Assembly: GCF_002741015.1 (NCBI RefSeq)
Contig: NZ_CP016616.1
Location: 5,110,501 to 5,174,500, forward strand
DNA from: Microvirga ossetica
Lineage (GTDB): Bacteria > Pseudomonadota > Alphaproteobacteria > Rhizobiales > Beijerinckiaceae
DNA length: 64,000 nt
Direction: 5' to 3'
Below are positions 2,188 through 28,420 of the stretch, piece by piece. Each line of letters begins with the position of its first letter. Within the stretch, counting starts at the first letter, position 1. A program made the position numbers and the translations under genes. The notes below the pieces were generated by a model. The model did no database searches. It worked only from the letters and a program-made list of their open reading frames with translations, and was not told the origin of the DNA.

Positions 2188-2221
2188 CGCTTGACGCTTT
2201 GGGACAGAGCATTGACCCGAT
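2188..2221 (-). promoter_or_regulatory. 34-bp AraC-type element, copy 1 (upstream of BASS/ppk2/SulP)
   Basis: Read on the minus strand, the half-sites GGTCAA and GTCAAGC are in phase 21 bp apart with CTGTCCC between them, as in the other copies. The first half-site lacks the usual AAACT lead. TAATGA starts 18 bp after TCAAGC, where other copies have a -10-like hexamer. It faces the BASS gene, but also lies in the divergent gap 168 bp before the AraC gene at 2389, so it could serve autoregulation too. Confidence 0.6.
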
Positions 2222-2388
2222 GGGACGATGAGATGCCGGGTGCGCAGGAAAATTCTTCTAGTTGCCGCAATCGGGCGCTAACCTATCTTAGCTTGATGAA
2301 GATCAAAGCATCCGTCTCGAATTTGGTGTTTGATTGCGCCGACTGTGCGGCTTCGGGATAGCGATCTTTAGAACTCTGCGAGGCAGTC

Positions 2389-3492
2389 ATGATGATCAAT
2401 GACATCGTGTCTCCGGCTACAGGAAGCAGCGAGGAGAATTCCACATCGGGGCAGCCAATCCTCCTGGCGGGCCGCGGGCGGACTCTCCCTCCCGGCTATA
2501 TTCATCTGGGGGTTTCCAAGGAAATCGCGCCGACCCTGCGAGATTTCGGCGTCGAGCCCGATCCGGTCATCCGGGAGGCGGGGCTCGATCCCCATCTCTT
2601 CGAGGACGGCACGAACGTCATCCCCCATATGGCCTTGGGCCGGCTGCTTACCTTGAGCGTGGCTCGCACGAATTGCCCGCATTTCGGGCTTCTGGTCGGT
2701 CAGCGCGCCACGATCCTGTCCCTCGGCATGGTGGGGCGCCTGATGCAGCATTCCGAGACCCTGGGCGACGCCATGCGTGCTCTCGTGTCGAACCTGAGCA
2801 TCCAGAATCGGGGCGCCGTCCCGTCGCTCGCGATCAGTGGCGATGCGGCCTATTTCACATTCTCGGTCTACCAGCCCGAGGCGGAGAGCGCGGATCAGAT
2901 CTCGGACGGGTCCCTCGCCGTCGCAGTGAATGCCATAAGAGCCCTCTGCGGCTCTCACTGGAACCCGATGGAGATATTGTTGCCTCGTATTACTCCTGCG
3001 GATCAGGAACCGTTTCGGCGCCATTTCAGAGCTCCGGTGAGGTTCAACCAGGAAAGCGCCATCATCGTCTTCCCAGCCCGCGATTTGGGTCTGCGCATCG
3101 CCGGGGCCGATCCTCTGTTGCGGGCCATGCTGGAGGAGAGGATCCGGCAACTGAAGGGCGCGCAAGGTTCCGAATTCTCGGACGACATTAGGCGGTTGCT
3201 GCGTATGCGGCTGACGAGCAATCACTGCTCGGCCGATGACATCGCCCATTTGCTCACGATGCACCGGCGCACCCTGAGCCGCCGCTTGAAAGGCGGCGGC
3301 ATGGGCTACAGGGCGATCACGAACGAGATCCGCTTCGAGATCGCGCGTCAGTTGCTGCAGGATACCCAAGTGCCGCTCACCCAAATTGCGGCGGCCCTCG
3401 GCTATTCCGAAGCGAGCGCCTTCACCCGCGCCTTCCGGCGCTGGTCGGGCCAAACGCCGACAACATGGCGGGCTGAAGGCCATCCTGGCTGA
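2389..3492 (+). CDS. AraC family transcriptional regulator with N-terminal ligand domain
   Basis: A 367-residue regulator. Residues about 40-235 match the arabinose-binding-like sensor found in OruR/ArgR-type AraC proteins, and about 260-360 form the two helix-turn-helix units, with MHRRTLSRRLK in the first and the ending GYSEASAFTRAFRRWSG in the second. GAGG precedes the ATG. AraC proteins of this class usually activate by binding direct repeats about 21 bp apart near the -35 site. Six such 34-bp elements occur in this window, one in this gene's own upstream gap, which makes it a prime candidate for their activator. The inducer is unknown. The DNA-binding part is clearly related to the short AraC protein at 5076. 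Confidence 0.9.
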   Translation: MMINDIVSPATGSSEENSTSGQPILLAGRGRTLPPGYIHLGVSKEIAPTLRDFGVEPDPVIREAGLDPHLFEDGTNVIPHMALGRLLTLSVARTNCPHFGLLVGQRATILSLGMVGRLMQHSETLGDAMRALVSNLSIQNRGAVPSLAISGDAAYFTFSVYQPEAESADQISDGSLAVAVNAIRALCGSHWNPMEILLPRITPADQEPFRRHFRAPVRFNQESAIIVFPARDLGLRIAGADPLLRAMLEERIRQLKGAQGSEFSDDIRRLLRMRLTSNHCSADDIAHLLTMHRRTLSRRLKGGGMGYRAITNEIRFEIARQLLQDTQVPLTQIAAALGYSEASAFTRAFRRWSGQTPTTWRAEGHPG

Positions 3493-3507
3493 GCTCCGCC
3501 GCGGCTT

Positions 3508-3541
3508 AAACTGTCAAGAGATTGTCCCCACCGGTCAAGCA
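3508..3541 (+). promoter_or_regulatory. 34-bp AraC-type element, copy 2 (upstream of DUF2092 gene)
   Basis: One of the best copies: AAACTGTCAAG, then ATTGTCCCC, then CCGGTCAAGCA. The two TCAAG half-sites are exactly 21 bp apart. TACAGT, a plausible -10, starts 18 bp after TCAAGC at 3559-3564. The ATG of the exported DUF2092 protein is 114 bp beyond the element. Confidence 0.72.
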
Positions 3542-3654
3542 CGATGTGAACATCGGCCTACAGTAATCCTATGGCTGGCCTATGATTCCGTGCGTACGAA
3601 GCACGGGAGCTTTCGCCGGCTCGCGCCTGGAATAAATCCAGGGAGGATCGCACG

Positions 3655-4467
3655 ATGAACCGAGGGATCTATTTGGGTCGCGGAACTCCGCTTGCGAGAA
3701 TCCTGTTCCGGCTCGCAGCTGTCGTGGCCATCGTCGGCGTGCCCATGAGTGCCGCGCGGGCGGAGGAGGGCGAGGCGAAAGCCATTCTGAAAGCCATGAC
3801 GGATTATGTCAGTCGCCAGGAGAATCTGTCTCTGAAATACGATACCGATATCGAGGTGGTGACGCCGGCCGTCGAGAAAATTCAGTTCAGCGCCTCGGGC
3901 GATGTCACCATGAGCCGCCCGAACAAGTTCCGCATCAGTCGCGCCGGTGGCTATGCCGATATCGAACTCGTATCGGATGGCTCCAGCGTGACCATCCATG
4001 ACCGCGGCGGCAATCGCTTCGCGCAAGTTCCCGGGGGCGGCGCCTTCGACGAGGTTGTCGACAGGCTCCGGAGCGACGCTTCGCTTGAACTTCCCGGAGC
4101 CGATCTCTTGCTGTCGAAATCCTATGAGGAACTCATGGCGGGGGTGCTCGAGGCCAAGCATATCGGCCGCGGCGTCGTCGAGGGTGTCGAATGCGAGCAT
4201 CTGGCCTTCCGTAATCTCGAGACCGACTGGCAGATCTGGGTCGAAGTCGGCGAGAAGCCGGTGCCGCGTAAATATGTCATCACAAGCAAGGCGGTTGGGG
4301 CCGCGCCCCAGTACACGCTGCGGCTCCGGGACTGGAAAACCGGCGTCGCGCCGGCGCCGGACGCGTTTGCGTTCAAACCGCCCGCCGGCTCCACCGGAGT
4401 CTCGATCACCGTGCTCGATGACATCGACGAAATTCCAGCGGGTGTCGTTCCCGGAGGCGCGAAATGA
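3655..4467 (+). CDS. DUF2092 family exported protein (LolA-like fold)
   Basis: A 270-residue protein with an N-terminal signal peptide ending about residue 37 (VPMSAARAEEGEAK). The rest matches DUF2092, which is predicted to adopt a LolA/LolB-like half-barrel and so may bind a lipid or hydrophobic ligand in the periplasm; no family member function is settled as far as I know. GGGAGG precedes the ATG at good spacing. The stop overlaps the start of the next small gene (ATGA), so the two are translationally coupled. A 34-bp AraC-type element lies upstream. The function is inferred from fold only. Confidence 0.8.
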   Translation: MNRGIYLGRGTPLARILFRLAAVVAIVGVPMSAARAEEGEAKAILKAMTDYVSRQENLSLKYDTDIEVVTPAVEKIQFSASGDVTMSRPNKFRISRAGGYADIELVSDGSSVTIHDRGGNRFAQVPGGGAFDEVVDRLRSDASLELPGADLLLSKSYEELMAGVLEAKHIGRGVVEGVECEHLAFRNLETDWQIWVEVGEKPVPRKYVITSKAVGAAPQYTLRLRDWKTGVAPAPDAFAFKPPAGSTGVSITVLDDIDEIPAGVVPGGAK

Positions 4468-4769
4468 TCAGTTCAGACTTCAAGGTGATGTCCCGTGCCG
4501 CGCTCGCGCTTTTGGCCGGCGGTTTCGCCCTGTTCTGGAGCGGTGATGCACCGGTTCCGTCGGGCTCGTTGATCAGCCAGGCGGAGGCCAGGATCGGACG
4601 GCCGGCAACACCCATGAGCTATGCCGGTGTCGCGCGGCGGACAACCCGCAGGGGCGTCGCCTACGGGGCGGCAGCCGGAGCCGCTGCGGCAGGCACTTAC
4701 TACTATGCGACCCCAGGCTGCCGGCAGGTGGTGAATTCGTACGGGCAGATCGTAACCCGCTGCCCATAA
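4464..4769 (+). CDS. Small exported or membrane-anchored protein, unknown function
   Basis: A 101-residue protein starting four bases inside the DUF2092 gene. Residues 8-28 are hydrophobic (signal or anchor), a second Ala/Gly-rich stretch GAAAGAAAAGTYYYA lies near residues 68-82, and the end has the paired cysteines CRQVVNSYGQIVTRC. Short proteins of this pattern are common in Hyphomicrobiales, but I know no function. Coupling to the DUF2092 gene suggests they act together in the envelope. Confidence 0.7.
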   Translation: MISSDFKVMSRAALALLAGGFALFWSGDAPVPSGSLISQAEARIGRPATPMSYAGVARRTTRRGVAYGAAAGAAAAGTYYYATPGCRQVVNSYGQIVTRCP

Positions 4770-4968
4770 AACAAGCCCGCGCTCAAGCTGCTCTCCCGAT
4801 TGCGGGCGCGGAGATTTTGGATGTTGCCGGGGGTTGTTCGCCAGCGTTCGCGAAGGACGTGCTTGGCGAACTGCTCAACCAGAGCGACTCAAAGAATGCT
4901 TCGTGAGTTGCTTCGTGAAAGCCCGACATCGTCGCAGATTGCGATGGAGACTGCTTATCTTCGGTTCC

Positions 4969-5002
4969 TAAGTGTCACGAGCAAGGCAAGGCCGATCGAG
5001 CA
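4969..5002 (+). promoter_or_regulatory. Degenerate copy of the 34-bp AraC-type element
   Basis: TGTCA and CCGATCGAGCA fall at the same positions as in the six good copies, with the half-sites 21 bp apart. The central TTGTCCC is lost and no -10 hexamer follows at 18 bp. It ends 73 bp before the ATG of the short AraC gene at 5076. It may be a weak or repressor-type site, or chance; the rest of the 4770-5075 gap shows no gene. Confidence 0.3.
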
Positions 5003-5075
5003 CATGTGGTGAGGGATCGCTGCGACGTAGACGGTTCGGTAGCAGCAGGGCTGCCAAAATGGGGGGTAAGGAGCG

Positions 5076-5567
5076 ATGGAGATGCCATCCGCCCGCGGAC
5101 CAGACGAACCGAATTCGAGCCAAGGCTTTGGTTCAATCACCGAGGATCTGCGTCGGGTTCTTCGTACCGAACTGCTCCGGGGCGCCTGCTCGGCCACCAC
5201 GGTCGCCGGCCTTTTCTCGATGCATCGCCGCACCTTGCATCGTCATCTTCGTATGGAGGGCCGCGCATTCCGGCAGGTGGCCGATGGAATTCGCTTCGAG
5301 ATTGCGTGCGAGCTCCTCGAAAACACCGATATGGCTCTCGGTCAGGTCGCTGCAGCCCTGCAATACTCAGAGCTGAGCGCCTTCACACGAGCATTCCGGC
5401 GCTGGTCCGGGCAGAGCCCTTCGGCGTGGCGCACAAGTCATAGCCGTGTTCGGAAATCGCGGCGGCTCCGCTCGCCACGCGGCCCCGCTTTGCCTCTGGA
5501 TCCTGACAACCGCTCCGATCACGCAGGCAAGCTCTCCTGGCAGCATCCGAAAGGCAGCCCTGAGTAA
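5076..5567 (+). CDS. AraC-type protein reduced to the DNA-binding domain
   Basis: A 163-residue protein. Residues about 20-110 hold both AraC helix-turn-helix units (SMHRRTLHRHLR, then QYSELSAFTRAFRRWSG), closely related to the C-terminal domain of the regulator at 2389. It has no sensor domain, and the DNA upstream does not encode a missing one in any frame I can follow. The C-terminal 50 residues are Arg/Pro/Ser-rich and unlike the family. It may be a ligand-independent activator, a competitor for the same 34-bp sites, or a decayed duplicate. GGTAAGGAGCG lies before the ATG. Confidence 0.7.
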   Translation: MEMPSARGPDEPNSSQGFGSITEDLRRVLRTELLRGACSATTVAGLFSMHRRTLHRHLRMEGRAFRQVADGIRFEIACELLENTDMALGQVAAALQYSELSAFTRAFRRWSGQSPSAWRTSHSRVRKSRRLRSPRGPALPLDPDNRSDHAGKLSWQHPKGSPE

Positions 5568-5734
5568 GCCGTCCAGACGCGGATGATCGCACCATGCATT
5601 GAGAATGCCTCGCGGAACAACTATCCGTTCGGGCGTGCCGACCGGGGGAAGCCTGCTCTTGCAGGGATAACGCCATGGATCTCGCGCATCCAAGGTCGAG
5701 CAATGCTCGCGCTCATTTCCCGCCGGGCAGTCCT

Positions 5735-5768
5735 AAACTGTCAAATTAATGGCCCAACCGGTCAAGCA
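5735..5768 (+). promoter_or_regulatory. 34-bp AraC-type element, copy 3 (upstream of pta-ackA)
   Basis: AAACTGTCAA, a variant core ATGGCCC, then ACCGGTCAAGCA, with half-sites 21 bp apart. CATACT starts 18 bp after TCAAGC. The element lies 150 bp before the phosphotransacetylase ATG, in a 350-bp gap (5568-5917) where I see no other gene. It is the only good copy whose core departs from TGTCCC. Confidence 0.65.
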
Positions 5769-5917
5769 GCGGGTTGAGGACGAGCCATACTTGCCTCTGC
5801 AAGACGGGCGTCGCGGACATAAGCCCAGGCATTGTTCCGGCACGCCCCTTTGTCACACCCGGCGAGAACCCGGCGGTCAATCGCAACGCCCATCGGCAGC
5901 AGAACGTGGAGGCAATC

Positions 5918-6898
5918 ATGACGATTGCGGTTTCAGCCCAGGGTGTGTCTCAGCATGGTCAGCGGCAGCACGACAAGTACGACCGACTCGTGGCGACCGC
6001 GCAATCTGTTCCGAAGTTGAAGGTCGCGGTTGCCCACCCCTGCGATCCGGCATCCTTGGGCGCCGTGCTCGAGGCGGTCGCGCTCGGCCTGATCGAGCCG
6101 ATCCTCTGCGGGCCCAAGGCCAAGATTGAGGCGGTGGGAGAGGCGCTCGGCAAGGATATCTCTGGGTTGCGCATCGTGGATGTGCCGCACAGCCATGCTG
6201 CTGCGGCAGCGGCCGTCGACCTCGTGAAGGCCGGCGAGGCGGAAGCCTTGATGAAGGGCAGCCTGCATACGGACGAGCTCATGGGCGCCGTGGTTCGCCG
6301 TGAGGGCGGCCTGCGGACCGCCCGGCGGATCAGCCACTGCTTCGTCATGGACGTTCCCGGCCATGAGACTGCGCTCATCATCACCGATGCTGCGGTGAAT
6401 ATTGCGCCGACGCTGGAGGACAAGGTCCATATCGTCCAGAACGCCATCGACCTTGCCCGGGCTCTGCGGGTCGATCCGGTGCTGGTGGCGATTCTATCGG
6501 CGATGGAGACCGTGAACCCGAAGGTGCCCTCGACCATCGAGGCTGCGGCATTGTGCAAGATGGCGGACCGCGGGCAGATCACGGGCGGTATCCTCGACGG
6601 CCCCCTCGCGCTCGACAACGCCATCGACCTCGGTGCGGCGACGATCAAGAAAATCCAGTCGCCGGTTGCCGGGAAGGCCAACGTGCTTGTGGTCCCGGAC
6701 CTGGAGGCCGGCAACATGCTCGCCAAGAGCCTGACCTTCCTCGCCGATGCGGATGCCGCCGGCATCGTGCTCGGCGCCCGCGTCCCGATCATCCTCACGA
6801 GCCGGGCCGATTCGACGATCACCCGGCTGGCCTCCTGCGCCGTAGCCTCACTCGTCGCCGAAGCGCAACGCTCGCAGCTTTCCATTCCGGAGGTCTGA
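5918..6898 (+). CDS. pta: Phosphate acetyltransferase / phosphate acyltransferase
   Basis: A 326-residue enzyme of the phosphate acetyl/butyryltransferase family, which makes acetyl phosphate and CoA from acetyl-CoA and phosphate in the cytoplasm. Family landmarks are MKGSLHTDELM (about residues 110-120), the HETALIITDAAVNI region, and the C-terminal segment with GKANVLVVPDLEAGNML. I chose ATG 5918 because GTGGAGG lies just before it; an in-frame ATG at 5774 would add 48 non-homologous residues. It is followed three bases later by acetate kinase, so the pair forms the acetate-producing, ATP-generating branch. Many relatives in this order act on acetyl-CoA; butyryl specificity is possible. Confidence 0.9.
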   Translation: MTIAVSAQGVSQHGQRQHDKYDRLVATAQSVPKLKVAVAHPCDPASLGAVLEAVALGLIEPILCGPKAKIEAVGEALGKDISGLRIVDVPHSHAAAAAAVDLVKAGEAEALMKGSLHTDELMGAVVRREGGLRTARRISHCFVMDVPGHETALIITDAAVNIAPTLEDKVHIVQNAIDLARALRVDPVLVAILSAMETVNPKVPSTIEAAALCKMADRGQITGGILDGPLALDNAIDLGAATIKKIQSPVAGKANVLVVPDLEAGNMLAKSLTFLADADAAGIVLGARVPIILTSRADSTITRLASCAVASLVAEAQRSQLSIPEV

Positions 6899-6901
6899 TC
6901 C

Positions 6902-8110
6902 ATGACACCGGTCCTGATCGTCCTCAACGCGGGGTCATCGAGCCTCAAGTTCCAGGTCTTCGACATGCCGGATGGGGAGGAACCTCAGCTTGTCTGGAGA
7001 GGTCTATACGAGGGTCTGGGCGGCGATGCGCGTTTCACCGTCAAGGATGCGAGCGGAAGCATTCTGGACGAGAGCTCCTGGGGCCAGGGCGAGGAGATCG
7101 GGCATGAGGAATCGCTGATGCATCTCATCGCGTGGTTGCGCGAGCATCAGGAAGGGCGCAAGCTCGTCGCCATCGGACACAGGGTCGTCCACGGTGGCGC
7201 GACCTATTCCGGCCCGGTGCTGGTCGACGAAACCGTCCTCCAGGCGCTTGAGGCGCTGGTGCCGCTCGCGCCTTTGCATCAGCCCCATAACCTGGAGCCG
7301 ATCCGGATTGTGCGACGCCGCCTTCCGGGGATGCCGCAGGTTGCCTGTTTCGATACTGCCTTCCATCAAACCCAATCGGACATCGCGACTTTGTTCGCCC
7401 TGCCGCGCGAAATGCGCGATCGCGGCGTTCGGCGTTACGGCTTCCACGGGCTGTCCTACGACTACATCGCGTCCATCCTGAAAGACTACGATCCCCGTCT
7501 CGCCGAGGGCCGGGTGATCGTCGCGCATCTCGGAAACGGCGCGAGCCTGTGCGCTCTTCGAAACGGCAGGAGCATTGCGACAACCATGGGCTTCTCCGCT
7601 CTCGACGGCCTCCCGATGGGAACGCGCTGCGGCGCCGTCGACGCCGGCGTCATCTTCTTCATGTTGCGGGAGATGAAGCTCAGTCCGGAGGCAGCCGAAC
7701 GCATGCTCTACACCAAGTCCGGGCTTCTTGGCGTCTCCGGCCTGTCGAATGACATGCGGGTCTTGAGGACCAATGCGGCAACGAACCCGGATGCCAAGCG
7801 CGCCATCGAGCTGTTCATCTATCGCATCACGCGCGAAATCGGATCGCTGGTCGCGGCCTTGGGCGGCATCGACGGTCTCGTCTTCACGGCCGGGATCGGA
7901 GAGAACGACGCGGCGACACGCGCCGAGGTGGTCGACGGCCTCGCATGGGCCGGCCTTACCCTCGATGAATCTGCCAACGGCACCGCCGGCCCGCGGATTT
8001 CCTCGGGATCCGGCTCGTCGGTGTGGGTCGTTCCAACAAACGAGGAACTGGTGATCGCACGGCAGACGCGCAGCGTTCTGGGCGACACCCAGGCTCGGCT
8101 TGCATCCTGA
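6902..8110 (+). CDS. ackA: Acetate kinase (acetate/propionate kinase family)
   Basis: A 402-residue cytoplasmic kinase that turns acetyl phosphate and ADP into acetate and ATP. Visible motifs are NAGSSSLKFQ at the N-terminus, VVHGG near residue 97, DTAFHQT near 153, HLGNGAS near 208, MGTRCGAVDAG near 240 and FTAGIGEN near 325. The TRCGAVDAG segment replaces the commoner TRSGDLDPG, as I recall from other alphaproteobacterial paralogues. Start has GGAGG eight bases upstream, inside the end of pta. It is part of the pta, ackA, unknown, DUF3141, fabI run. Confidence 0.94.
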   Translation: MTPVLIVLNAGSSSLKFQVFDMPDGEEPQLVWRGLYEGLGGDARFTVKDASGSILDESSWGQGEEIGHEESLMHLIAWLREHQEGRKLVAIGHRVVHGGATYSGPVLVDETVLQALEALVPLAPLHQPHNLEPIRIVRRRLPGMPQVACFDTAFHQTQSDIATLFALPREMRDRGVRRYGFHGLSYDYIASILKDYDPRLAEGRVIVAHLGNGASLCALRNGRSIATTMGFSALDGLPMGTRCGAVDAGVIFFMLREMKLSPEAAERMLYTKSGLLGVSGLSNDMRVLRTNAATNPDAKRAIELFIYRITREIGSLVAALGGIDGLVFTAGIGENDAATRAEVVDGLAWAGLTLDESANGTAGPRISSGSGSSVWVVPTNEELVIARQTRSVLGDTQARLAS

Positions 8111-8126
8111 ACAGGGAGATTATGTC

Positions 8127-8639
8127 ATGGAAACACTGAAGACCAAGCCTGAAGGCGGCAATGGCGGGCAGGAATTGGGTGACGAGACATTCATGTCGGC
8201 AGAGGACCTTCGGAACTACATGACCGAGATGCAGATGGCGAAGGCCACCACGTCGGTCGATGGCATGGACCGCGCCGGGAAGGCCCGCGAGGAATTGATC
8301 AAGCGGCTCGCCGAGCCGCTCGATCTCACTCCCGAACGATTGAAGGAGATCCTCGAACCGCTGCAGGCCAAGCTGAGAGCGGCGGCAGCACGCGGACAGA
8401 CCGAATTGATGGTCATGCGGTTCCCCAATACACTTTGCACCGACAAGGGCCGCGCGCTCAACAACGCGGATCCAACTTGGCCCGAAACCCTCACGGGTCG
8501 CCCGCGTCAGGCCTATGAATTGTGGCGCGATCAGCTGAGAGCCGCAGGCTTCAGACTGAATGCGATGATCATCGAATGGCCTGGCGGATTGCCGGGCGAC
8601 ATCGGCTTCTTCCTCAGATGGGGCGAACAAAAAAAGTGA
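8127..8639 (+). CDS. Conserved hypothetical protein of the pta-ackA operon
   Basis: A 170-residue soluble protein without signal peptide or membrane segment that I do not recognise as a named family. The middle is helical and charged (DRAGKAREELIKRLAEPLD), and the C-terminal half contains a compact segment rich in Trp and Gly (IIEWPGGLPGDIGFFLRWGE). AGGGAG lies eight bases before the ATG. Its place between acetate kinase and the DUF3141 protein, with short spacing on both sides, suggests a role in the same acyl-CoA/acyl-phosphate or PHA metabolism. Confidence 0.7.
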   Translation: METLKTKPEGGNGGQELGDETFMSAEDLRNYMTEMQMAKATTSVDGMDRAGKAREELIKRLAEPLDLTPERLKEILEPLQAKLRAAAARGQTELMVMRFPNTLCTDKGRALNNADPTWPETLTGRPRQAYELWRDQLRAAGFRLNAMIIEWPGGLPGDIGFFLRWGEQKK

Positions 8640-8674
8640 TCGCTTCTGGAAGGCTACCGTGGGTGGATGACATA

Positions 8675-11089
8675 ATGCAAAAGATCGGGTCTGGAACTGA
8701 GCGAAGCCAAGATGGGGCTCAAGCGAGACTCGTGCAGGTCACTCGTGCGCAAGCAAAGTTGGCCGAGGTCTATCGGGAGCGGTGCACAAACGCGGGGCAG
8801 CGTTACCTCGATGCGGCGAAGGCCGCGGGTGAATTGTTGGCCGACAGGCCGATCCGCTCGGCTTCGCCGCTGGACCTGTGGCGGGACGCCGGCAACTACT
8901 GGCTCGACTTCACGCAACGCTCCATCCTGTTCTGGGACACCCTGCGCCAGCGCGGCAACAACTGGCTCGAACATGAGAAGGCCGGAAAGCCGCCGCTCCT
9001 GGATTTCGAGTGGGAAATGATTGCCGATGCCCGCACGTTCGAGAAGCCCGCGAACTATGCCCTCGTCCAGATCACGCCGCCGGATGGCGTCGAGACGGAC
9101 CCGGAGCGCCGGCCCTTCGTCATCATCGATCCGCGGGCCGGCCATGGGCCCGGCATCGGCGGGTTCAAGCAGGACTCGCAGGTCGGGGTGGCGCTCAAGG
9201 CAGGGCACCCAGTCTACTTCGTGATCTTTTTTCCCGAACCGGTGCCTGGGCAGACCCTCGCGGATGTCTCGCGCGCCGAGGCGGAATTCCTCCGCATTGT
9301 CGGCGAGCGCCATCCGAAGACGCGCAAGCCGGTCGTGGTCGGCAACTGCCAGGGCGGTTGGGCCTCCATGCTCGTCGGCGCGCTCGAACCGGACCTCGTC
9401 GGTCCCATCGTGATCAATGGGGCGCCGATGTCCTACTGGGCCGGCAACGATAGCGAGAATCCGATGCGTTATGCGGGCGGCACGCTCGGCGGCGTCTGGC
9501 CCGCGCTCCTGGCCAGCGATCTCGGCGCCGGCACGTTCGACGGCGCCCACCTGGTCGAAAACTTCGAGTCTCTCAATCCCGCCAACACCTACTTCGACAA
9601 GTACTACAACCTCTTCTCGAAGATCGACACCGAGCCGGAGCGCTTCCTCGAATTCGAGCGCTGGTGGGGCGGCTTCTTCCTGATGGGCCGGCAGGAGATC
9701 AAATGGATCGTCGAGAACCTGTTCGTCGGCAACAACCTCGCGGACGGCGACGCTGAATGGTCCGAGGGGCGCGCCTTCGACCTGCGGGCAATCCAAACGC
9801 CGATCATCGTGTTCGCGTCTCTCGGCGACAACATCACGCCGCCGCAGCAGGCCTTCAACTGGGTGGCCGATATCTATCCGACCACCGAAGCCCTCAAGGC
9901 GAACGGACAGGTCATCGTCGGCCTGATGCACCAAAGCGTCGGCCATCTCGGCATCTTCGTCTCGGGTGCTGTCGCCAAGCGCGAGCATACCCAGATCGTC
10001 GACCTGATCGAGTACATCGAGCATCTGCCGCCAGGTCTCTACGGCATGCAGGTCGAGGAGCAGAAGACGAATGAGGGTGTGCGCTACGACGTCATGCTGA
10101 CCGAGCGCCGGGTCGAGGACCTTCAGGTTCTGCAGAAGTACGGCCGCAAGGACGAGATGCCGTTCCGGGCGGTCGAAGCGACCTCCGAGACTCTCGCCTC
10201 CGCCTACGAAACTTTCGTCCATCCCGCCCTCGCGGCGATGGTGACACCCGCCGGTTCGGCCGTGAGGCGTGCGATGCATCCACAGAGGGCGCAGCGCTGG
10301 GCGGTGTCGGATCTCAACCCCTTCCTGTGGCCGCTCAAGGGCATGGCCGATATGGTGCGGGCGAACCGCACGCCGCGCGACAACGATGGTCCGATGGCGG
10401 CGATGGAGCACTGGACGGCCGCCATGACCTCCGCGTCGTTGGATCTCTATCGCGACCTGCGCGATGCGACAGCGGAGAACACCTTCTTCCGCACCTACGG
10501 CCCGGCCAGCATCGGCATGGTCGCGCAGGACAAGGACACCGTCGCGGCGGAACCAGTGGACGCGCGGAATGCTCCTCTGGTCAAGGAAGCGCTGTCGCAT
10601 ATCGAGGACGGCGACCCGACGCAAGCCATCGTTCGTACAGCGCTCCTGCTGATGAAGGCCGGTACCGGGCGGCGGCGACTCTCGGCCATGAAACGGGCAC
10701 GCGAGCTTGTCGGCAAGGATATCGGCCTTGTCGATATGACGGCGGAGGCTGCCCGCGGGATCATCCGAGAGCAGTCCTACATCGTCGATTTCGAGCCGGT
10801 GAAGGCGCTCATGGCGCTGCCGAAGCTGCTGCGGACATCCGAGGACCGGCGCAGGCTGCTCGAGCTGCTCGACCGCCTGGAGGGCCAGATCGAGGCCAAT
10901 GCCAAGCAGGTCACGCTGCTGGGCGAGATCCGGCGCCTCCTCTCCGGGGACGGGACCGATGACAACTCGAAGAGCAGGCCAATCACGGCGACGCGGCCCG
11001 AGAACCCCACGGGCCGGCCCAAGGCGATGGCGAGGCCGGGCACCGCCCGTCGATCCGGTGACACCCGACGCACGAGGGCAAGTTCATGA
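8675..11089 (+). CDS. DUF3141 protein, PHA-synthase-like alpha/beta hydrolase
   Basis: An 804-residue cytoplasmic protein. Residues about 110-480 form an alpha/beta-hydrolase domain resembling poly(3-hydroxyalkanoate) synthases. The nucleophile elbow is VVGNCQGGWA (Cys about residue 227), with the likely acid in ASLGDNITPPQQ and the base in QSVGHLGIF, giving a Cys-Asp-His triad as in PHA synthases. The C-terminal 300 residues are helical and specific to DUF3141. I chose ATG 8675; the DNA before it overlaps the previous gene. The family is annotated as PHA-synthesis related, but its reaction is unproven. It overlaps fabI by four bases. A phasin gene lies 3 kb downstream. Confidence 0.82.
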   Translation: MQKIGSGTERSQDGAQARLVQVTRAQAKLAEVYRERCTNAGQRYLDAAKAAGELLADRPIRSASPLDLWRDAGNYWLDFTQRSILFWDTLRQRGNNWLEHEKAGKPPLLDFEWEMIADARTFEKPANYALVQITPPDGVETDPERRPFVIIDPRAGHGPGIGGFKQDSQVGVALKAGHPVYFVIFFPEPVPGQTLADVSRAEAEFLRIVGERHPKTRKPVVVGNCQGGWASMLVGALEPDLVGPIVINGAPMSYWAGNDSENPMRYAGGTLGGVWPALLASDLGAGTFDGAHLVENFESLNPANTYFDKYYNLFSKIDTEPERFLEFERWWGGFFLMGRQEIKWIVENLFVGNNLADGDAEWSEGRAFDLRAIQTPIIVFASLGDNITPPQQAFNWVADIYPTTEALKANGQVIVGLMHQSVGHLGIFVSGAVAKREHTQIVDLIEYIEHLPPGLYGMQVEEQKTNEGVRYDVMLTERRVEDLQVLQKYGRKDEMPFRAVEATSETLASAYETFVHPALAAMVTPAGSAVRRAMHPQRAQRWAVSDLNPFLWPLKGMADMVRANRTPRDNDGPMAAMEHWTAAMTSASLDLYRDLRDATAENTFFRTYGPASIGMVAQDKDTVAAEPVDARNAPLVKEALSHIEDGDPTQAIVRTALLLMKAGTGRRRLSAMKRARELVGKDIGLVDMTAEAARGIIREQSYIVDFEPVKALMALPKLLRTSEDRRRLLELLDRLEGQIEANAKQVTLLGEIRRLLSGDGTDDNSKSRPITATRPENPTGRPKAMARPGTARRSGDTRRTRASS

Positions 11090-11892
11090 ACGATCAGCCC
11101 TCAGAACTCCCCAAAGCAGCCATCCAATCGAAGATTCTGCACGGCAAGCGGGCCCTCGTCATCGGCATCGCCAATGAGCACTCGATCGCCTATGGCTGCG
11201 CCCGGGTCTTCCGTCAGCTCGGGGCGGACCTTGCCGTGACCTACCTGAACGAGAAGGCCCGGCCCCATGTCGAACCGCTTGCCAAGGAGCTCGGGGCATC
11301 GATCTTCGCCCCCTGCGATGTCGGCCGGAACGGCGAGCTTGAAGCGGTCTTTCAGCAGATCCGCGAGACCTGGGGCAGCCTCGACATCGCGCTCCATTCC
11401 ATCGCGTTCGCGCCGAAGGAGGACCTGCAGGGGCGTCTCCTCGACAGTTCGAGCGAGGGGTTCAAGGTGGCGATGGATATCTCCTGCCACTCGTTCATCC
11501 GCATGGCGCGCCTCGCCGAACCCTTGATGACCGAGGGCGGGACCCTGCTCGCCATGAGCTATCACGGCGCCAACAAGGTCGTCCCGAACTACAACCTCAT
11601 GGGTCCGGTGAAAGCGGCATTGGAAAGCGCCGTTCGTTACCTCGCCTATGAACTGGGCGACAAACACATAAGAGTGCACGCCGTGTCGCCCGGTCCGTTG
11701 AAAACCCGGGCGGCTTCCGGCTTGAAGGACTTCGATGTCCTTCTCACCGAGGCCATCGAGCGATCGCCCATCGGCGAACTGGTCGACATCGACGACGTGG
11801 GGCTCACGGCCGCCTTTCTGACGACCCCGTTCGCCCGGCGCCTCACTGGGACGACAACCTATGTCGATGGCGGGCTCAGCATCATGGCCTGA
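11086..11892 (+). CDS. fabI: Enoyl-[acyl-carrier-protein] reductase (NADH), FabI type
   Basis: A 268-residue FabI, reducing trans-2-enoyl-ACP in fatty-acid elongation. The nucleotide loop GIANEHSIAYG is near residues 27-37, and the active-site pattern NYNLMGPVKAALE (Tyr then Lys seven residues on) is near 164-176. The ending TGTTTYVDGGLSIM is typical. It starts inside the stop of the DUF3141 gene (ATGA). This is probably a second copy, since housekeeping fabI is usually elsewhere. I recall a pta, ackA and fabI grouping from Sinorhizobium meliloti, where it was linked to phosphate limitation. Confidence 0.92.
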   Translation: MNDQPSELPKAAIQSKILHGKRALVIGIANEHSIAYGCARVFRQLGADLAVTYLNEKARPHVEPLAKELGASIFAPCDVGRNGELEAVFQQIRETWGSLDIALHSIAFAPKEDLQGRLLDSSSEGFKVAMDISCHSFIRMARLAEPLMTEGGTLLAMSYHGANKVVPNYNLMGPVKAALESAVRYLAYELGDKHIRVHAVSPGPLKTRAASGLKDFDVLLTEAIERSPIGELVDIDDVGLTAAFLTTPFARRLTGTTTYVDGGLSIMA

Positions 11893-14489: not shown

Positions 14490-14586
14490 CGGTTCTTACC
14501 TTCGGCGCGATGCTGTTCGCCGCGATCAGCGCGATGCGGAATCGGACCGTGAGGCGCTGAGAGCTGGCGCGCGATCCTTCCGTCAC

Positions 14587-14620
14587 AAAGTGCCAAGCGC
14601 TTGTCCCAAGTGATCAAGCA
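14587..14620 (+). promoter_or_regulatory. 34-bp AraC-type element, copy 4 (upstream of Gly/Tyr-rich protein)
   Basis: AAAGTGCCAAG, core CTTGTCCC, then GTGATCAAGCA; the first half-site is CCAAG instead of TCAAG, but the 21-bp phase is kept. CACACT starts 18 bp after TCAAGC. The next ATG is 90 bp on, the shortest distance of the set. Confidence 0.6.
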
Positions 14621-14709
14621 GTCTCTTCAAATGCGGTCACACTATGCTCTGCTCATAACGGCTTGCTCTGGGACCATGCCTTGGTCCAGGCCGGAGATGG
14701 GAGGATTGC

Positions 14710-18813: not shown

Positions 18814-19206
18814 ATGGGTCATTGCTATTCCCTGGATCTGCGGGTGCGCGTCGCCGACTTTGTCGATGCAGGTCATTCCTGCCGGGCGGCAGCCCAGCAC
18901 TTTGACGTCAGCGAGAGTTTCGCCATCAAGCTGGTGCAGCGGAAGCGGCGGTTCGGCTCGCCGGCACCGGCCCGGCAAGGCCGTCCGCCCGGACGCGGCA
19001 AGCTGGTGCCCTATGAGAGCTTCTTGATCCAGACGGTCGAGGCCGAGCCGGCCATCACCATGCCCGAGCTGGCCGCAAGGCTGCTGACTGAGCATGGGAT
19101 CGTTGCGGCTCCCGCGATGCTCTCGCGCTTCCTGTGCCGGCACGGCTTCTCATATAAAAAAATGCCTGATGGCGGCGGAGTGCGCACGCGCCGATGTGCG
19201 GGATGA
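18814..19206 (+). CDS. IS630 transposase, N-terminal frame
   Basis: A 130-residue product holding the helix-turn-helix part of an IS630 transposase ([28 protein letters not shown]) and the linker up to the sequence RHGFSYKK. The match then leaves this frame at a run of seven A residues (about 19157-19163), and the last 15 residues are unrelated to the family. Skipping one A there (+1) would continue into the catalytic frame, so it is either a programmed frameshift or a one-base insertion. Confidence 0.8.
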
Positions 19207-19771
19207 GCGCCGGGTCTGGCATGCCCAGCGCCAGCCGCGCATGCGCCAGGAGACGCACCGGCTGGTGTTCCTGGACGAGACGTATGTCAACACCAAGATG
19301 ACGCGCCTGCGCGGGCGGAGCCGCAGGGGCCAGCGCCTACGCATGAAAGCTCCCTTTGGACACTGGAAAACCCATACCTTTCTGGCTGGGCTACGGTGCA
19401 ACGAGTTGTGCGCGCCGTGGATCATCGATGGCCCGATCACCCGGTTGGCGTTCGAGGCTTACATTGAGACGCAGCTCGCGCCGACGCTGCGCAAAGGCGA
19501 TGTGGTGATTCTCGACAACCTGGCTGTCCACAAGAGCGAGAAGGCCGCTCAGTGTCTGAAGCAACGCGGAGCCTGGTTCCTGTTTTTACCTGCTTATTCG
19601 CCTGATCTTAATCCAATTGAACAGGCCTTTGCCAAGATCAAAGCGCACTTGCGCAAGGCCGAGGCCCGAACGTTCGACGCGCTCTGGCGAGCGCTCGGTG
19701 AGATCTGCAACCTGTTCGAACCACAAGAGTGCTGGAACTACCTTAAGGCTGCCGGATATGCGTCCGTTTAA
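19094..19771 (+). CDS. IS630 transposase, catalytic DDE frame
   Basis: Family similarity begins in this frame after the A-run, at [12 protein letters not shown] near 19163. The DDE catalytic core is intact: [17 protein letters not shown] (first Asp), [12 protein letters not shown] (second Asp) and the ending [17 protein letters not shown] (Glu). Translation as a fusion with the N-terminal frame gives a normal-length IS630 transposase. The ATG at 19094 is probably not a real start, since the residues before the A-run in this frame are unlike the family. Confidence 0.82.
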
Positions 19772-23142: not shown

Positions 23143-23964
23143 TCATCTTGCGCGGCAGCCTGCATCCTGAAACTGTCCGATCACCCGCGCCATCAGATCA
23201 GGAGAGGGAGACTGGGTGTCGGAAAGCTCGTAGTTAAGGCCCATGGCCTTCCATTTGAAGGTGCCCATCTGATGAAACGGCAGGACCTCCACCCACTCCA
23301 CGTTGCGCATGGGTGCGACGAAACGGGCGATGCCCTCGACATTGGCGGGATCGTCGGTCAGGCCCGGGACCAGCACGAACCGCACCCAGACCGGTTTGCC
23401 GAGAGCTGCCAGGCGCTCCGCGAATTGAATGGTCGGGCGTATGTCCTGACCGACGGCTCGGCGATAGGTTTCCGGGTCCCAGGATTTGATGTCGAGCAGT
23501 ACAAGATCGACATAACGCAGATACTCGTCGTCGGCGCGCGCTCCGAGGAAGCCCGATGTGTCCAGCGCCGTGTGCAACTCCATGCCCTTGGCGGCTGCGA
23601 AGAGCCGCTTGGTGAAATGCAGTTGGACCAGCGGCTCCCCGCCGGAAATCGTCAATCCCCCATCCATGGCCCGCAGCGGCGCGGCATAAGCCTGAAGCGC
23701 AGTTTTGGCACGCTCGAACGAGACGCGGGTTCCGTCCTTGAGGTGCCATGTGTCCGGGTTGTGGCAATAGAGGCATCGCAGCAGGCATCCGCTCATGAAG
23801 ACCGTCACGCGGATGCCAGGGCCGTCTACGGTCGACCCGGTCTCATAGGAGTGGATCCATCCGAAGTCGCCCCGGGGATCGTTGAAGGTATCGGTCTCCG
23901 GAGCGTCCGGGGACCGCGCCTGTTGCAGAGCGTACCGGCTGTGTGCCCAGGGCTCATCGGCCAT
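23143..23964 (-). CDS. pflA: Pyruvate formate-lyase activating enzyme (radical SAM)
   Basis: A 273-residue radical-SAM enzyme that makes the glycyl radical on pyruvate formate-lyase. The [4Fe-4S] motif is C-x3-C-x2-C at residues 60, 64 and 67 (GCLLRCLYCHNPDTW), and DGGLTISGGEPLVQ follows near 108-121. I chose ATG 23964 because GTGAGG lies nine bases before it; a GTG at 23979 overlapping the pflB stop would add five residues. It has the directly preceding pflB as partner. Confidence 0.93.
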   Translation of the reverse strand: MADEPWAHSRYALQQARSPDAPETDTFNDPRGDFGWIHSYETGSTVDGPGIRVTVFMSGCLLRCLYCHNPDTWHLKDGTRVSFERAKTALQAYAAPLRAMDGGLTISGGEPLVQLHFTKRLFAAAKGMELHTALDTSGFLGARADDEYLRYVDLVLLDIKSWDPETYRRAVGQDIRPTIQFAERLAALGKPVWVRFVLVPGLTDDPANVEGIARFVAPMRNVEWVEVLPFHQMGTFKWKAMGLNYELSDTQSPSPDLMARVIGQFQDAGCRAR

Positions 23965-23975
23965 GATGTCAAGCC

Positions 23976-26309
23976 TCACTCGCCATGGAAGGTCCGGCTG
24001 ATGACGTCCATCTGCTGCTCCCGGGTAAGGCGGACGAAATTGACCGCATAGCCCGAAACCCGGATCGTCAATTGCGGGTACTTGTCCGGATGTTCCATGG
24101 CATCAATCAGAGTATCGCGGTTGAGGACGTTGAGGTTCATGTGGAACCCACCTTGGCCGCAATAGGTGTCGAGCACCTTCACCGCCTGTTTGATCTTTTC
24201 GCCTTGATCCTGTCGATTGAAGCTCGGCGTGATCGACACGGTGTAGCTGATGCCATCCTGCGCATCCGCATAAGGCAGCTTGGCGACCGACAGGCACGAG
24301 GCGAGCCATCCATGGCTGTCGCGGCCATGCATCGGATTGGCGCCCGGGGCAAAGGGCTCACCGGCCTTGCGCCCGTCCGGCGTGTCGCCCGTGTTCCTGC
24401 CATAGACGACATTGCTCGTGATGGTCAGCACCGACTGCGTATGGACTGCATTCCGGTAGGTCGGGTGCTTGCGGATCTTCTTCATGAAGGTGGAGACGAG
24501 GTCGGCCGCAATGCTGTCGACGCGGTCGTCGTTGTTGCCGTATTGCGGAAAGTCGCCCGTGATCTCATAATTGACGATCAGTCCGTCTTCACGGCGGATC
24601 GGCTTGACCTGCGCATGCTTGATCGCAGACAGGCTGTCGGCAATCACCGACAGACCCGCAATGCCGAACGCCATCGTGCGCAGGATCTGCTGGTCGTGGA
24701 GCGCCATTTCCAGGCGTTCGTAGTAATACTTGTCATGCATGTAGTGGATGCAGTTCATCGCGTGGACATAGGTCCGCGCCAGCCACTCCATCATGAAGTC
24801 GAACTTCGTCATGACGTCATCGAATTCGAGAACGTCGCCGGTTACGGGCGCCGTCGCCGGGCCGATCTGATCGCCGCTCACCTCGTCCCGCCCGCCATTG
24901 ATGGCATAGAGAAGACATTTGGCGAGATTGACGCGGGCGCCGAAGAACTGCATCTGGTTGCCGATGCGCATGGCCGAGACACAGCAGGCGATGCCGTAAT
25001 CGTCACCCCAATAGGGGCGCATGAGATCGTCGTTCTCGTATTGAATGGAGGACGTCTCGGCCGAAACCTTGATGCAGTAGCGCTTGAAGCCGTCAGGGAG
25101 CTGCTTCGACCATAGCACCGTTATGTTGGGCTCCGGCGCCGGGCCGAGATTGGTTAGCGTGTGCAGCATGCGGAAACTGGTCCGGGTGACCAGGGGACGG
25201 CCGTTGAGATCCATGCCGCCGACGCATTCCGTGGCCCAGTAGGGATCGCCCGAGAACAAGGCATCGTAGTCGGGCGTGCGCAGGAATCGGACGATGCGCA
25301 GCTTCTGGACGAGCTGGTCGATGAGCTCCTGGGCGCCTGCCTCATCGAGAGCGCCGCTCTCCAGGTCGCGCTCGATGTAGATATCGAGGAAGGACGAGAT
25401 GCGGCCGATGGACATGGCCGCGCCATTAGCCTCCTTGATGGCGCCGAGGTAGCCGAAATAGGTCCATTGCACCGCTTCACGGGCATTCGACGCCGGCTTT
25501 GTGATGTCGCAATCATAGCTCTTGGCCATGGTCGCCAGGTCGGCGAGCGCCCGCATCTGATCCGCCAGCTCTTCCCGCTCGCGGATGACGTCGTCCGTCG
25601 GCCATTTGGCGTCGAGGAGAACCCGCTCGGCACGTTTGGCCGCCAGCAGCCGGTCGGTTCCATACAGGGCCACGCGGCGATAGTCGCCGATGATCCGCCC
25701 CCGGCCGTAGGCATCCGGCAGACCGGTGATGATATGGCTGCGCCGGCAGGCCATGATCTCCGGTGTATAGGCGTCGAAGACGCCTTCGTTGTGAGTCTTG
25801 CGATACTTAGTAAAGATGTCGTGCACGATGGGATCCGGCTCAAAGCCGGCCGCCTTCAGCCCGGACTCGACCATGCGCAACCCGCCATACGGCATGATCG
25901 CCCGACGGAACGGCGCATCGGTCTGGAGTCCGACGATCAGCTCGTTGTCGCGGTCGATGTATCCGGGCTGATGAGCGGTGAGCGAGGATGGTGTCTTGGC
26001 ATCGACGTCCAGAACACCTTTCCGGATTTCCTCCTTGAAGTAGGGCTGGAGCTTGTCCCATACGGCCTTTGTTCGCTCGCTGGGTTCCACGAGGAAGCTC
26101 TCGTCGCCATCGTAGGGCGTGACGTTGCGCTGAATGAAATCGCGAACGTCGACGGCGTGCTGCCAACGACCAGGTGCGAAACCTGTCCATTCGCTCATGG
26201 AATCCGTCGCTTCCGCTGCGTCTGCGGGAGGGGAGACTGCCCGACGATGTTTTGGCTCTTGCTTCGGGGAACCCGTGGACGTCTGAGCAGCAATGGCTTC
26301 ATCTGGCAT
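23976..26309 (-). CDS. pflB: Pyruvate formate-lyase (formate C-acetyltransferase)
   Basis: A 777-residue glycyl-radical enzyme splitting pyruvate plus CoA into formate and acetyl-CoA. The adjacent catalytic cysteines are at about 442-443 ([10 protein letters not shown]), and the radical glycine at about 753 (RVSGYAVNF). The N-terminal 36 residues precede the usual start ([12 protein letters not shown]). GGGAGGAGG lies five bases before the ATG, supporting the longer form. The enzyme is oxygen-sensitive once activated, and no YfiD-like repair protein is seen nearby. It sits between serine dehydratase and its activase. PFL is uncommon in this largely aerobic group, so acquisition by transfer is possible. 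Confidence 0.96.
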
Positions 26310-26386
26310 GGCAGCCTCCTCCCATGAGAACCATGGGATATTGGTTCAACGCATCCTCGATCGCTCACCCTCACCGGCAGCGCTGC

Positions 26387-28030
26387 TCAGCAGAGAGTCA
26401 GGTTTTGCGCCAACCCTGCTTCGCTCGTCTCTTTGTACTTCGAGTTCATGTCTCGCGCGGTGTCGGCCAGCGTCTTGATCGTCGTGTCGAGATCGACCCG
26501 GTGCCGGCTTGCGATCTCATTGGTGGCAATCATCGCAGCGGTCCACGCCTTCACGGCACCGAAGGCGCAGCGCTCGATGCACGGCACCTGAACATAGCCC
26601 GCGACAGGATCGCAGGTCATGCCCAGATGATGCTCAAGAGCCGACTCGGCGGCATTCTCGATCACGCGCGGCGGGCTGTTCAGGACCTGCGTGATCAGCG
26701 CCGCGGTCATCGCCGATGCGACGCCGATCTCGGCCTGGCACCCGCCTTCCGCCGCCGCGAGCGTCGCGTTGTGCTTGCACAGATAGCCGACGGCCGCGCC
26801 AGCCAGAAGACCCTGCCGGATCTTGTCCATCGGCACCGCCCGGCCGCTCTGGGTCAGGGCATAGACGATGGCCGGCATCACCCCAGCCGATCCGCCGGTC
26901 GGCGCGGTGATAACCAGATGGCCGCGGGCATTCTCCTCTGAGGCGGCCAATGCGAAGGCCGAAACGAGCCCGATCGCCCGATCGCTCATATAGGTATCGT
27001 CCTGGGCACGCTCAAAGACAGTCGCAGCCTTGGATTGGAGCTTGATCGGCCCAGGAAGGACGTCGTCCTTGTAGGAAAGGCCGGTCTTCACCGTCGCGAT
27101 CATCGCGTTGGCGATCTTGTCCAGGAAGGCGTTGACTTGCTCCTCGGTCTTCCCGGAGACGGCTATCTCGTTCGCCATCACGACGTCGGCGATCGTGAGG
27201 TTGTTGTTCTCCGCGTGCTGCCGAAGTTCCTTCATCGTGGCGTAGGGATATTTCGGCTGTCCCTTCTTGGGCGGCTCGTAGCCCTTCCACTCGATGAAGC
27301 CGCCGCCAACCGAATAGTACTCCTGCTCATAGAGGACCTTGTCGCCCGCCATGAGCCTGCAGGTCATCATGTTCGGGTGTGCGAATTCGCCTTTCGGCGC
27401 ATCATAGATGACGTCGGCCAGGGATAGATCGAACGTCTTGCTTCCGAGCTTGACCGGATAGGTCTGCTGAGGCTTGGCGATCATCTCGTCGAGGAACATC
27501 GGGTCCACGGTGGCCGGTTCCTTGCCGACCAGGCCCGCCAGAGCGGCTCGTTCTGTCCCGTGGCCTTTCCCTGTTGCACTCAGGCTGCCAAAAAGATTGA
27601 CCTTGAGGCCCGTCGCCTGGGCCAGCTGGTCTGCCGGCAGCTTCGTGCAGCGCTGATAGAAATCGTATGTGATGCGCATCGGCCCGATCGTATGCGAGCT
27701 CGAGGGGCCGGGGCCGACCTTGTAGAACTCGTCCGCCACAGTCATGACCGGTCCCTTCGATGCCTTGACGACGTCGAGATCGGGCGAGAGGGCGGAACTC
27801 ATCTTGAGACCGGAATCGCCTCCCGCGGCCGCCTTGGCGGCTTGCTGAGCGCCAGCCTCCGTCGCGGCCTGCTGCGCGCGGGCCTCGGGGCTCCATGTCG
27901 TGCCGGTCATCACTGCCGCAGCGCCGATGGCGGCATTGCGCATGAGGAAGGCCCGGCGGTCGATCCCTGACGGCGCATCAGGTGTCTCTGGCGTGGCGGA
28001 GAGCGGCTCGTCCTTGCTGATGCTGGTCAT
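26387..28030 (-). CDS. sdaA: Iron-sulfur L-serine dehydratase with Tat-type leader
   Basis: A 547-residue enzyme converting L-serine to pyruvate and ammonia. The beta domain starts near residue 90 (EFYKVGPGPSSSHTIGPM) and the alpha domain contains ITAPTGGSAGVMPA. The [4Fe-4S] ligands are kept: Cys 431, 473 and 484, spaced 42 and 11 as I recall for the Legionella enzyme, and the last residue is Cys 547, matching the tail-in-mouth ligand. Unusually, residues 1-53 look like a Tat signal: IDRRAFLMR, a hydrophobic stretch, then EARAQQ. AGGAGG precedes the ATG. First gene of the pfl operon, it would supply pyruvate for PFL. Export would be odd for such an enzyme. Confidence 0.93.
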   Translation of the reverse strand: MTSISKDEPLSATPETPDAPSGIDRRAFLMRNAAIGAAAVMTGTTWSPEARAQQAATEAGAQQAAKAAAGGDSGLKMSSALSPDLDVVKASKGPVMTVADEFYKVGPGPSSSHTIGPMRITYDFYQRCTKLPADQLAQATGLKVNLFGSLSATGKGHGTERAALAGLVGKEPATVDPMFLDEMIAKPQQTYPVKLGSKTFDLSLADVIYDAPKGEFAHPNMMTCRLMAGDKVLYEQEYYSVGGGFIEWKGYEPPKKGQPKYPYATMKELRQHAENNNLTIADVVMANEIAVSGKTEEQVNAFLDKIANAMIATVKTGLSYKDDVLPGPIKLQSKAATVFERAQDDTYMSDRAIGLVSAFALAASEENARGHLVITAPTGGSAGVMPAIVYALTQSGRAVPMDKIRQGLLAGAAVGYLCKHNATLAAAEGGCQAEIGVASAMTAALITQVLNSPPRVIENAAESALEHHLGMTCDPVAGYVQVPCIERCAFGAVKAWTAAMIATNEIASRHRVDLDTTIKTLADTARDMNSKYKETSEAGLAQNLTLC

Positions 28031-28166
28031 AGGCGTATCCTCCTGTTGAGGGCCTAGGCACGATAGAAATTGGAGACGTCCCCGTTATCATCTCAAGACG
28101 AGACGGAGGGGGTGTCGTCTCTCGCGCCCTGCCTTTTGGTGTCATTCTAATCAAGCCGTAAGCCTC

Positions 28167-28200
28167 CGCTTGATAGGAGGGGACAATCCCTTGACAGTTT
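28167..28200 (-). promoter_or_regulatory. 34-bp AraC-type element, copy 5 (upstream of serine dehydratase-pfl)
   Basis: On the minus strand: AAACTGTCAAG, GGATTGTCCCC, then CCTATCAAGCG, half-sites 21 bp apart. TAGAAT, the best -10 match of the set, starts 18 bp after TCAAGC (28144-28149). It lies 137 bp before the serine dehydratase ATG. A further GGCTTGATT occurs just downstream. Confidence 0.75.
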
Positions 28201-28386
28201 GAGCCATTCTAGTCGGGTAGGGGTGATGAGGCGGCAAGCCTCGACCGGGTCACTTCCCGGATCCGGACCCCCATCGTCTGGCTGATTGAGGAGCGCAACT
28301 TCTCACGCGATCTCTCAGCACCGCTCGACGGCGTCGGAAGCGCACTGGCCACGCCGTGGAATGACCGCCCGGTCACCTGTCGGCCC

Positions 28387-28420
28387 AAACTGTCAAGCAA
28401 TTGTCCCCGCCGATCAAGCA
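28387..28420 (+). promoter_or_regulatory. 34-bp AraC-type element, copy 6 (upstream of CAX antiporter)
   Basis: AAACTGTCAAG, CAATTGTCCCC, then GCCGATCAAGCA, half-sites 21 bp apart. TAGGGT starts 18 bp after TCAAGC at 28438-28443. It lies 152 bp before the ATG of the interrupted cation antiporter gene. Confidence 0.72.

Follow-up and report, generated by a model that had tools for sequence, protein, structure and literature searches.

We examined a repeated DNA element in a 64,000-nucleotide stretch of the genome of the soil bacterium Microvirga ossetica (contig NZ_CP016616.1, positions 5,110,501 to 5,174,500; hereafter the window). A first-pass annotation had described six copies of a 34-bp element and proposed that one AraC-family activator reads them to control fermentation genes. 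Our sequence analysis indicates that the element is longer, and that a family of AraC-type activators, whose genes adjoin it in related bacteria, very probably docks on it.

The element and the genes at the locus

All six copies are present at the positions and on the strands originally reported. We number these predicted AraC sites 1 to 6 and give the putative −10 hexamer with each. Site 1 (2188-2227, minus strand; TAATGA, weak, 2165-2170, minus) is divergent from an AraC-family regulator gene (2389-3492, plus) and precedes two putative target genes on the minus strand, encoding an SBF-family transporter (1183-2067) and polyphosphate kinase 2 (PPK2; 295-1134). Site 2 (3502-3541, plus; TACAGT, 3559-3564, plus) lies 9 bp past the stop codon of the regulator gene and before a putative target gene for a DUF2092 periplasmic protein (3655-4467, plus). 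Site 3 (5729-5768, plus; CATACT, 5786-5791, plus) precedes pta, a putative target encoding phosphate acetyltransferase (5918-6898, start picked from the reading frame), which is followed on the same plus strand by the acetate kinase gene ackA (6902-8110), a DUF3141 gene (8522-11089) and a gene for a FabI-like enoyl-ACP reductase of the SDR type (11086-11892). Site 4 (14581-14620, plus; CACACT, 14638-14643, plus) stands before a putative target gene for a predicted secreted protein with no Pfam match (14710-15363, plus). Site 5 (28167-28206, minus; TAGAAT, 28144-28149, minus) precedes a minus-strand cluster comprising the L-serine ammonia-lyase gene (26387-28030, a putative target), pfl, encoding pyruvate formate-lyase (23976-26309; TIGR01255 above cut-off), and the gene for a radical SAM protein, presumably the PFL activase (23143-23979). 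Site 6 (28381-28420, plus; TAGGGT, 28438-28443, plus) precedes a putative target gene for a Na/Ca exchanger-family protein (28572-29198, plus; start picked from the reading frame). DDE transposase genes flank the pfl region (19094-19771 and 29898-31271).

Chance does not account for the six copies. A consensus of them, searched with up to three mismatches, recovered five and nothing in 100 shuffled sequences; the pattern was derived from the very copies searched, and the diverged copy at 2188 lies outside the five. Alignment of 19 distinct sites (18 pattern matches from the M. ossetica genome after removal of duplicates, plus the copy at 2188) revealed an additional TGTCCC-like box 8 to 3 bases 5' of the pattern start, at positions outside the search pattern (its G and its C each present in 18 of 19), along with an AA after it and a downstream −10-like TANNNT. 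We then used R1, a sequence-only profile of 40 bp made from 63 non-redundant sites, each taken from a Microvirga locus or from the genome that contains the window. The profile is most similar to itself at a shift of 21 bp (0.66; no other lag from 5 to 31 exceeds 0.38), so the element consists of two tandem units of the form TGTCCC-N8-AA-N5 with a 21-bp period (majority consensus of the 63 sites, TGTCCCAAAnTGTCAAGnnAnTGTCCCAAnCGGTCAAGCA). The repeat noticed in the first-pass annotation is thus real, and its full length is 40 bp rather than 34, the first TGTCCC having been omitted; given this further box, the central TGTCCC, which had been taken for a core between two half-sites, is the start of the second repeat. 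R1 recovers all six window copies, which are among its training sites, within a set of 40 sites in the whole genome. Since the training sites come from within Microvirga, counts inside the genus depend on the training, and those from the two allied genera described below (g40 and g43) and from other families are independent of it.

The −10 hexamers are as previously described, 17 bp past the full site. Among the 36 distinct sites in the genome, TANNNT occurs at offset 17 in 21 and at offset 18 in five, with five occurrences over the rest of the range 0 to 59. This fixed spacing places the TCAAGCA end of the second unit at the position of a −35 hexamer, and the sites thus have the layout of class II promoters, with the proximal repeat at −35 and a −10 at constant distance. 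Across 13 pta promoters the mean pairwise identity is 0.87 in the site and 0.97 in the −10, compared with 0.34 in the 80 bp upstream and 0.48 in the spacer; CATACT, earlier listed among the weak hexamers, is therefore a well-conserved −10. Twelve DUF2092 promoters give 0.85 for the site, 0.81 for the −10, 0.46 for the spacer and 0.59 for the upstream stretch, which is in part the coding end of the AraC gene.

A possible seventh, decayed site (4963-5002, plus) lies before a second AraC-type gene (5076-5567, plus), which encodes only the helix-turn-helix (HTH) part and has a counterpart of 70-81% identity in all ten named Microvirga loci examined. The site scores 14.8, and the reversed window contains one match scoring at least 12 and none scoring at least 14. 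The score by itself argues little for this site; the case comes from the relatives, as the position holds a strong site in seven of the ten loci, a weak one in two and none in one.

AraC-family regulators and their co-occurrence with the site

The protein encoded at 2389 is the likely binder. It has the double HTH and N-terminal sensor of the AraC/XylS family (HTH_18, PF12833, E 7e-20; Arabinose_bd, PF12625, E 3e-36), and its 24 relatives in named genomes are all from Microvirga. In the 5076 protein, a Pfam scan found PF12833 (E 2e-18) and no PF12625 sensor domain. In the M. ossetica genome, 11 full-length proteins (2389 itself included) are at least 52% identical to the 2389 protein, nine of them at 71% or more, and ten short relatives hold the HTH part only. 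Their recognition regions are nearly identical in paralogues above 70% identity and similar in the HTH-only ones. The idea of one regulator is thus not borne out, and the site may be shared by 21 paralogues, 11 of them full length and ten HTH-only.

For 29 of the 40 genomic sites, one of these 21 close paralogues is no more than 5 kb away, where fewer than 0.93 such sites would be expected from genome coverage only. None lies within 10 kb of the nine distant AraC genes of the same genome. Seven of the ten HTH-only genes have a same-strand site no more than 161 bp upstream, and four of these seven are near-copies of each other; no full-length gene (0/11) has a same-strand site within 700 bp upstream, although 2389 has a divergent one. 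The HTH-only genes at C1:2057006, C2:590109, C2:1107374 and C5:66994 are near-identical, and their first possible start codon falls 26-29 bp past the site, only a few bases beyond the expected transcript start, which implies either leaderless transcripts or a later start codon.

Site and regulator also coincide between genomes. Among 37 Microvirga genomes, as counted from per-genome rows and tallies, sites at E ≤0.01 occur in 30 of the 30 with a close AraC protein and in none of the seven without. One of the 30 (G012) has a single site, an AraC at 56% identity and a pta with no preceding site. One of the seven (G005) has only a distant AraC relative and carries pta, with no site before it. An rpoB search covered 29 of the 37 genomes and the additional genome G172; leaving out G004 (no match) and G026 (only fragments) gave a tree of 28 genomes, 27 from Microvirga plus G172. 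Six of the seven lacking genomes represent six separate absences on this tree. In an independent-pairs test the presence of AraC and of sites coincided in all 27 rows counted (G012 lies outside the pairs), so one vector was in effect entered twice, and the p of 0.03 is a count of six pairs. The number of sites follows the number of AraC matches (rho 0.88 over 37 genomes and 0.75 over the 29 with more than one site, both uncorrected for kinship and genome size).

The association extends beyond the genus. Among 199 genomes of the family, counted in the same way, the 13 that encode an AraC of at least 52% identity all have sites, compared with two of the 186 others. In genus g40 the four genomes with sites carry them before PPK2 and pta, and in genus g43 the one genome with sites carries them before phasin, DUF2092 and pta genes. 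The g40 and g43 sites lie no more than some kilobases from their AraC gene, and in genome G075 pta and its site are on another contig. Among 397 genomes of the order, sites at E ≤3e-4 occur only in G504 and G103 besides M. ossetica. The best foreign site is that of G504 (E 2e-6), 125 bp from an AraC gene whose product is also the best AraC match in the other 396 genomes.

The proposed regulon in the genome and its probable older layer

A 31-bp pattern searched with up to three mismatches gave 22 matches in the 9.63-Mb genome (six contigs) and none when reversed; R1 gave the 40 sites at E ≤0.003. The open reading frames (ORFs) behind sites were chosen from open frames rather than annotation; those behind 23 of the 40 were scanned with Pfam or NCBIfam, and seven more are HTH-only AraC genes. 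Outside the window, the genes behind sites include nap genes (napE, a ferredoxin-like napF candidate and napD, with napA recognised by reading the translation), two genes for DUF1254/1214 proteins and genes for a sulfatase, an FGE-sulfatase-like protein, an LTXXQ protein, two HWE-kinase proteins and an RTX-repeat protein (623 bp separate its frame from the site), as well as the HTH-only AraC genes. Several scanned ORFs had no Pfam match. The fermentation theme of the first-pass annotation therefore suits the window and the nap operon; the regulon as a whole is broader and takes in DUF2092, DUF1254/1214, sulfatase, FGE-like, HWE-kinase and regulator genes.

Four sites (C1:5070766, 2941710, 5512877 and 1326190) have CATCGG in place of AAACTG and stand before FGE-like or DUF1254 ORFs. 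Two of the four are near an AraC subclass of 52-53% identity, and together they form a possible site subclass.

We also looked at 18 regions, each around an AraC gene or a pair of such genes with 35-60% identity, from other genera or representing second paralogues. In six of these, a divergent match lies at most 190 bp from the AraC gene (scores 38.5, 26.3, 24.8, 22.6, 14.9 and 9.2), one of them with a second weak match (8.5) on the other side of the gene. Reversed controls reached at most 5.0 in the 18 regions and 7.7 in 1.37 Mb of loci. Three of these older sites precede sulfatase, DUF2092 and DUF1254/1214 genes, families that are also found behind Microvirga sites; behind the fourth best, no nearby ORF was recognised. 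From this distribution we infer that the envelope genes form an old core of the regulon, to which pta, PPK2, pfl and nap were added later. A wider scenario, to which we give not quite an even chance, is that Microvirga and two allied genera rewired an AraC regulon of envelope genes (DUF2092, DUF1254/1214, sulfatase) to mixed-acid fermentation, polyphosphate and nitrate respiration. The regulator would have multiplied in some Microvirga, above all in M. ossetica, leaving about 11 sensor-bearing and ten sensor-free paralogues on one 40-bp site, the sensor-free ones acting within the regulon as feed-forward or feedback elements.

Activation model and competing explanations

The explanation that we favour, and regard as highly likely taken as a whole, is that the element is the site of the AraC clade to which the 2389 protein belongs (Arabinose_bd sensor plus HTH_18), which activates in class II fashion, and that HTH-only paralogues act on the same element. 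Two protomers would bind head to tail, one on each 21-bp TGTCCC-N8-AA-N5 unit. The proximal unit, whose TCAAGCA end occupies the −35 position and is separated from the −10 by 17 bp, would place the bound protein in contact with RNA polymerase, where it would substitute for a −35 element. The regulator appears to have multiplied in Microvirga, and the HTH-only paralogues, mostly behind sites themselves, would bind the same element, most likely as sensor-free amplifiers, though they could instead compete. The regulon would unite the putative operons pta-ackA-fabI and serine dehydratase-pfl with PPK2, nap, ion transport and envelope genes. Two things point to low oxygen as a possible signal: pfl and nap lie behind sites, and a perfect FNR/FixK-type box, TTGATGAAGATCAA, the only strict match in the window, stands at 2293-2306, 82 bp before the 2389 gene. 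Such a box is, however, present in only three of 24 AraC upstream regions, the window included.

Binding by AraC proteins and promoter activation, as first proposed, are strongly supported at the sequence level by proximity, co-occurrence, separate absences and conservation footprints; linkage and co-occurrence thus favour the AraC interpretation, without its single regulator. Several observations weigh against it. At three of the 11 full-length paralogues, neither the 2.5 kb downstream nor the 700 bp upstream holds a site. The 40 sites include identical copies, leaving 36 distinct ones. The outcome that the first-pass annotation had named as damaging, sites inside genes and no co-occurrence with AraC, is not what we observe; nevertheless, 14 of the 40 sites lie mostly within ORFs, according to a crude gene model with 78% coverage of the regions. 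Six of the seven Microvirga genomes without AraC and sites also lack pta; the joint absence may thus partly reflect loss of a block, and gain by transfer rather than loss may account for the pattern. In the family, 19 of the 186 genomes without a close AraC encode one of lower identity, and 18 of these 19 have no site; in G198 the one site is far from its AraC gene. Of the 18 older-layer regions, 12 have no match near AraC, including L203 (60% identity) and L187, L191, L192 and L193 (43-44%). Weak sites also occur in G103, which has no AraC at E 1e-40, and in G237, whose AraC proteins reach 36% and 32%. At L182 (G103) and L183 (G237), both from other genera of the family, pairs of similar tandem sites lie upstream of genes for beta-keto acid cleavage enzymes; a related regulator may therefore read a similar site in genomes that lack a close AraC.

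Another class of DNA-binding protein might read the site (FNR/FixK, a sigma factor or a response regulator), the AraC genes being mere neighbours or targets, but this strikes us as very improbable. Site 1 and the HTH-only genes illustrate how an AraC-type gene can be a neighbour or a target, and the box at 2293-2306 is a perfect FNR/FixK match. A direct repeat of 21 bp at the −35 position is, however, AraC-like and not palindromic; the site tracks the clade of 2389 across family and order (co-occurrence was computed for AraC only); and it avoids the nine distant AraC genes. A general FNR/FixK control of the AraC gene was rejected because the box is rare in AraC upstream regions, and such control of the pta promoters because no TTGAN6TCAA box lies upstream of pta homologues in ten loci. 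Still less credible is a spread of the copies by mobile elements, or their being functionless repeats. Some sites are identical on several contigs of the genome and transposase genes lie in the window, but orthologous sites have been kept in place amid diverged flanks, and this, with the fixed −10 spacing, disfavours mobile-element ends as their source.

Two further possibilities concern the division of labour among the paralogues, and we take both more seriously. The sensor-bearing 2389 protein could alone act on the window sites, with paralogues owning slightly different sites in several small regulons, an arrangement that has a substantial chance of being correct, if somewhat short of even. 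Sites near the 52-53% subclass (C1:5070766 and C1:5512877) read TGTCCTCATCGGTCAAG or TGTCGTCATCGGTCAAG, as opposed to the TGTCCCAAACTGTCAA type, and most sites are a short distance from the nearest paralogue; yet the recognition region (HRRTLSR, YSEASAFTRAFRRWSGQ) is almost identical in paralogues above 70% identity, and R1 scores both site types. Alternatively, the HTH-only paralogues may be antagonists that compete for sites and provide negative feedback, a role that is a little less probable again. Their lack of a sensor domain, and the position of seven of the ten behind sites, would suit a feedback inhibitor. Against this, a study of XylS describes its C-terminal domain alone as being as efficient an activator as the full protein (PMC5481539), which makes the HTH-only proteins more likely to be amplifiers than antagonists.

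The kind of system proposed here is a known one. MarA, SoxS and Rob, acting at the marbox, are several AraC paralogues, some of them HTH-only, on one site; in M. ossetica, by comparison, sensor-bearing and HTH-only paralogues coexist, they are more numerous, and most HTH-only genes lie behind a site. At the Pm promoter, the proximal repeat of XylS overlaps the −35 element, with a 21-bp period. XylS is an activator of the AraC/XylS family that binds two direct repeats as two monomers and contacts RNA polymerase (PMC5481539). Its boxes (TGCA-N6-GGTA) are unlike the Microvirga element, and it represents one regulator at one promoter.

The N-terminal domain of Pseudomonas ArgR, another AraC/XylS-family protein, differs from that of the 2389-type regulators. 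The ARG box of ArgR is described as TGTCGCN6GNAA in tandem, 5 bp apart, which makes a 21-bp unit, with a second repeat that is generally less conserved (PMC10963909). On that description the half-site geometry is equal, the Microvirga element having the TGTCNC-N8-AA unit at 21 bp; it differs in C for G at the fifth base, in a conserved GTCAAG(C) tail and in having two strong repeats. No arginine genes were recognised among the ORFs scanned behind 23 of the 40 sites. The best NCBIfam match of the 2389 protein is QhpR (NF049968, residues 86-361), but at 222.9 bits against a cut-off of 250 it is not QhpR by the curated rule, and no amine dehydrogenase was recognised among the genes scanned. VirS (8rcx, E 3e-25) and an AraC family regulator (5chh, E 9e-20), both distant, are the nearest solved relatives by sequence among those covering most of the protein. 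We found no description of the motif or the regulon in the literature searched, most subscription journals being outside its scope. What sets the system apart is how many regulators appear to share a single site.

The genus Microvirga includes legume symbionts. For this genus the analysis provides a testable pair of regulator and site for fermentation and nitrate-respiration genes, and names the genes that it would join. Because regulator and sites are jointly absent in six separate cases, the genus is a clean comparative system, and it would offer a natural case in which a transcription factor multiplies, sensor-free copies included, while its site stays fixed.

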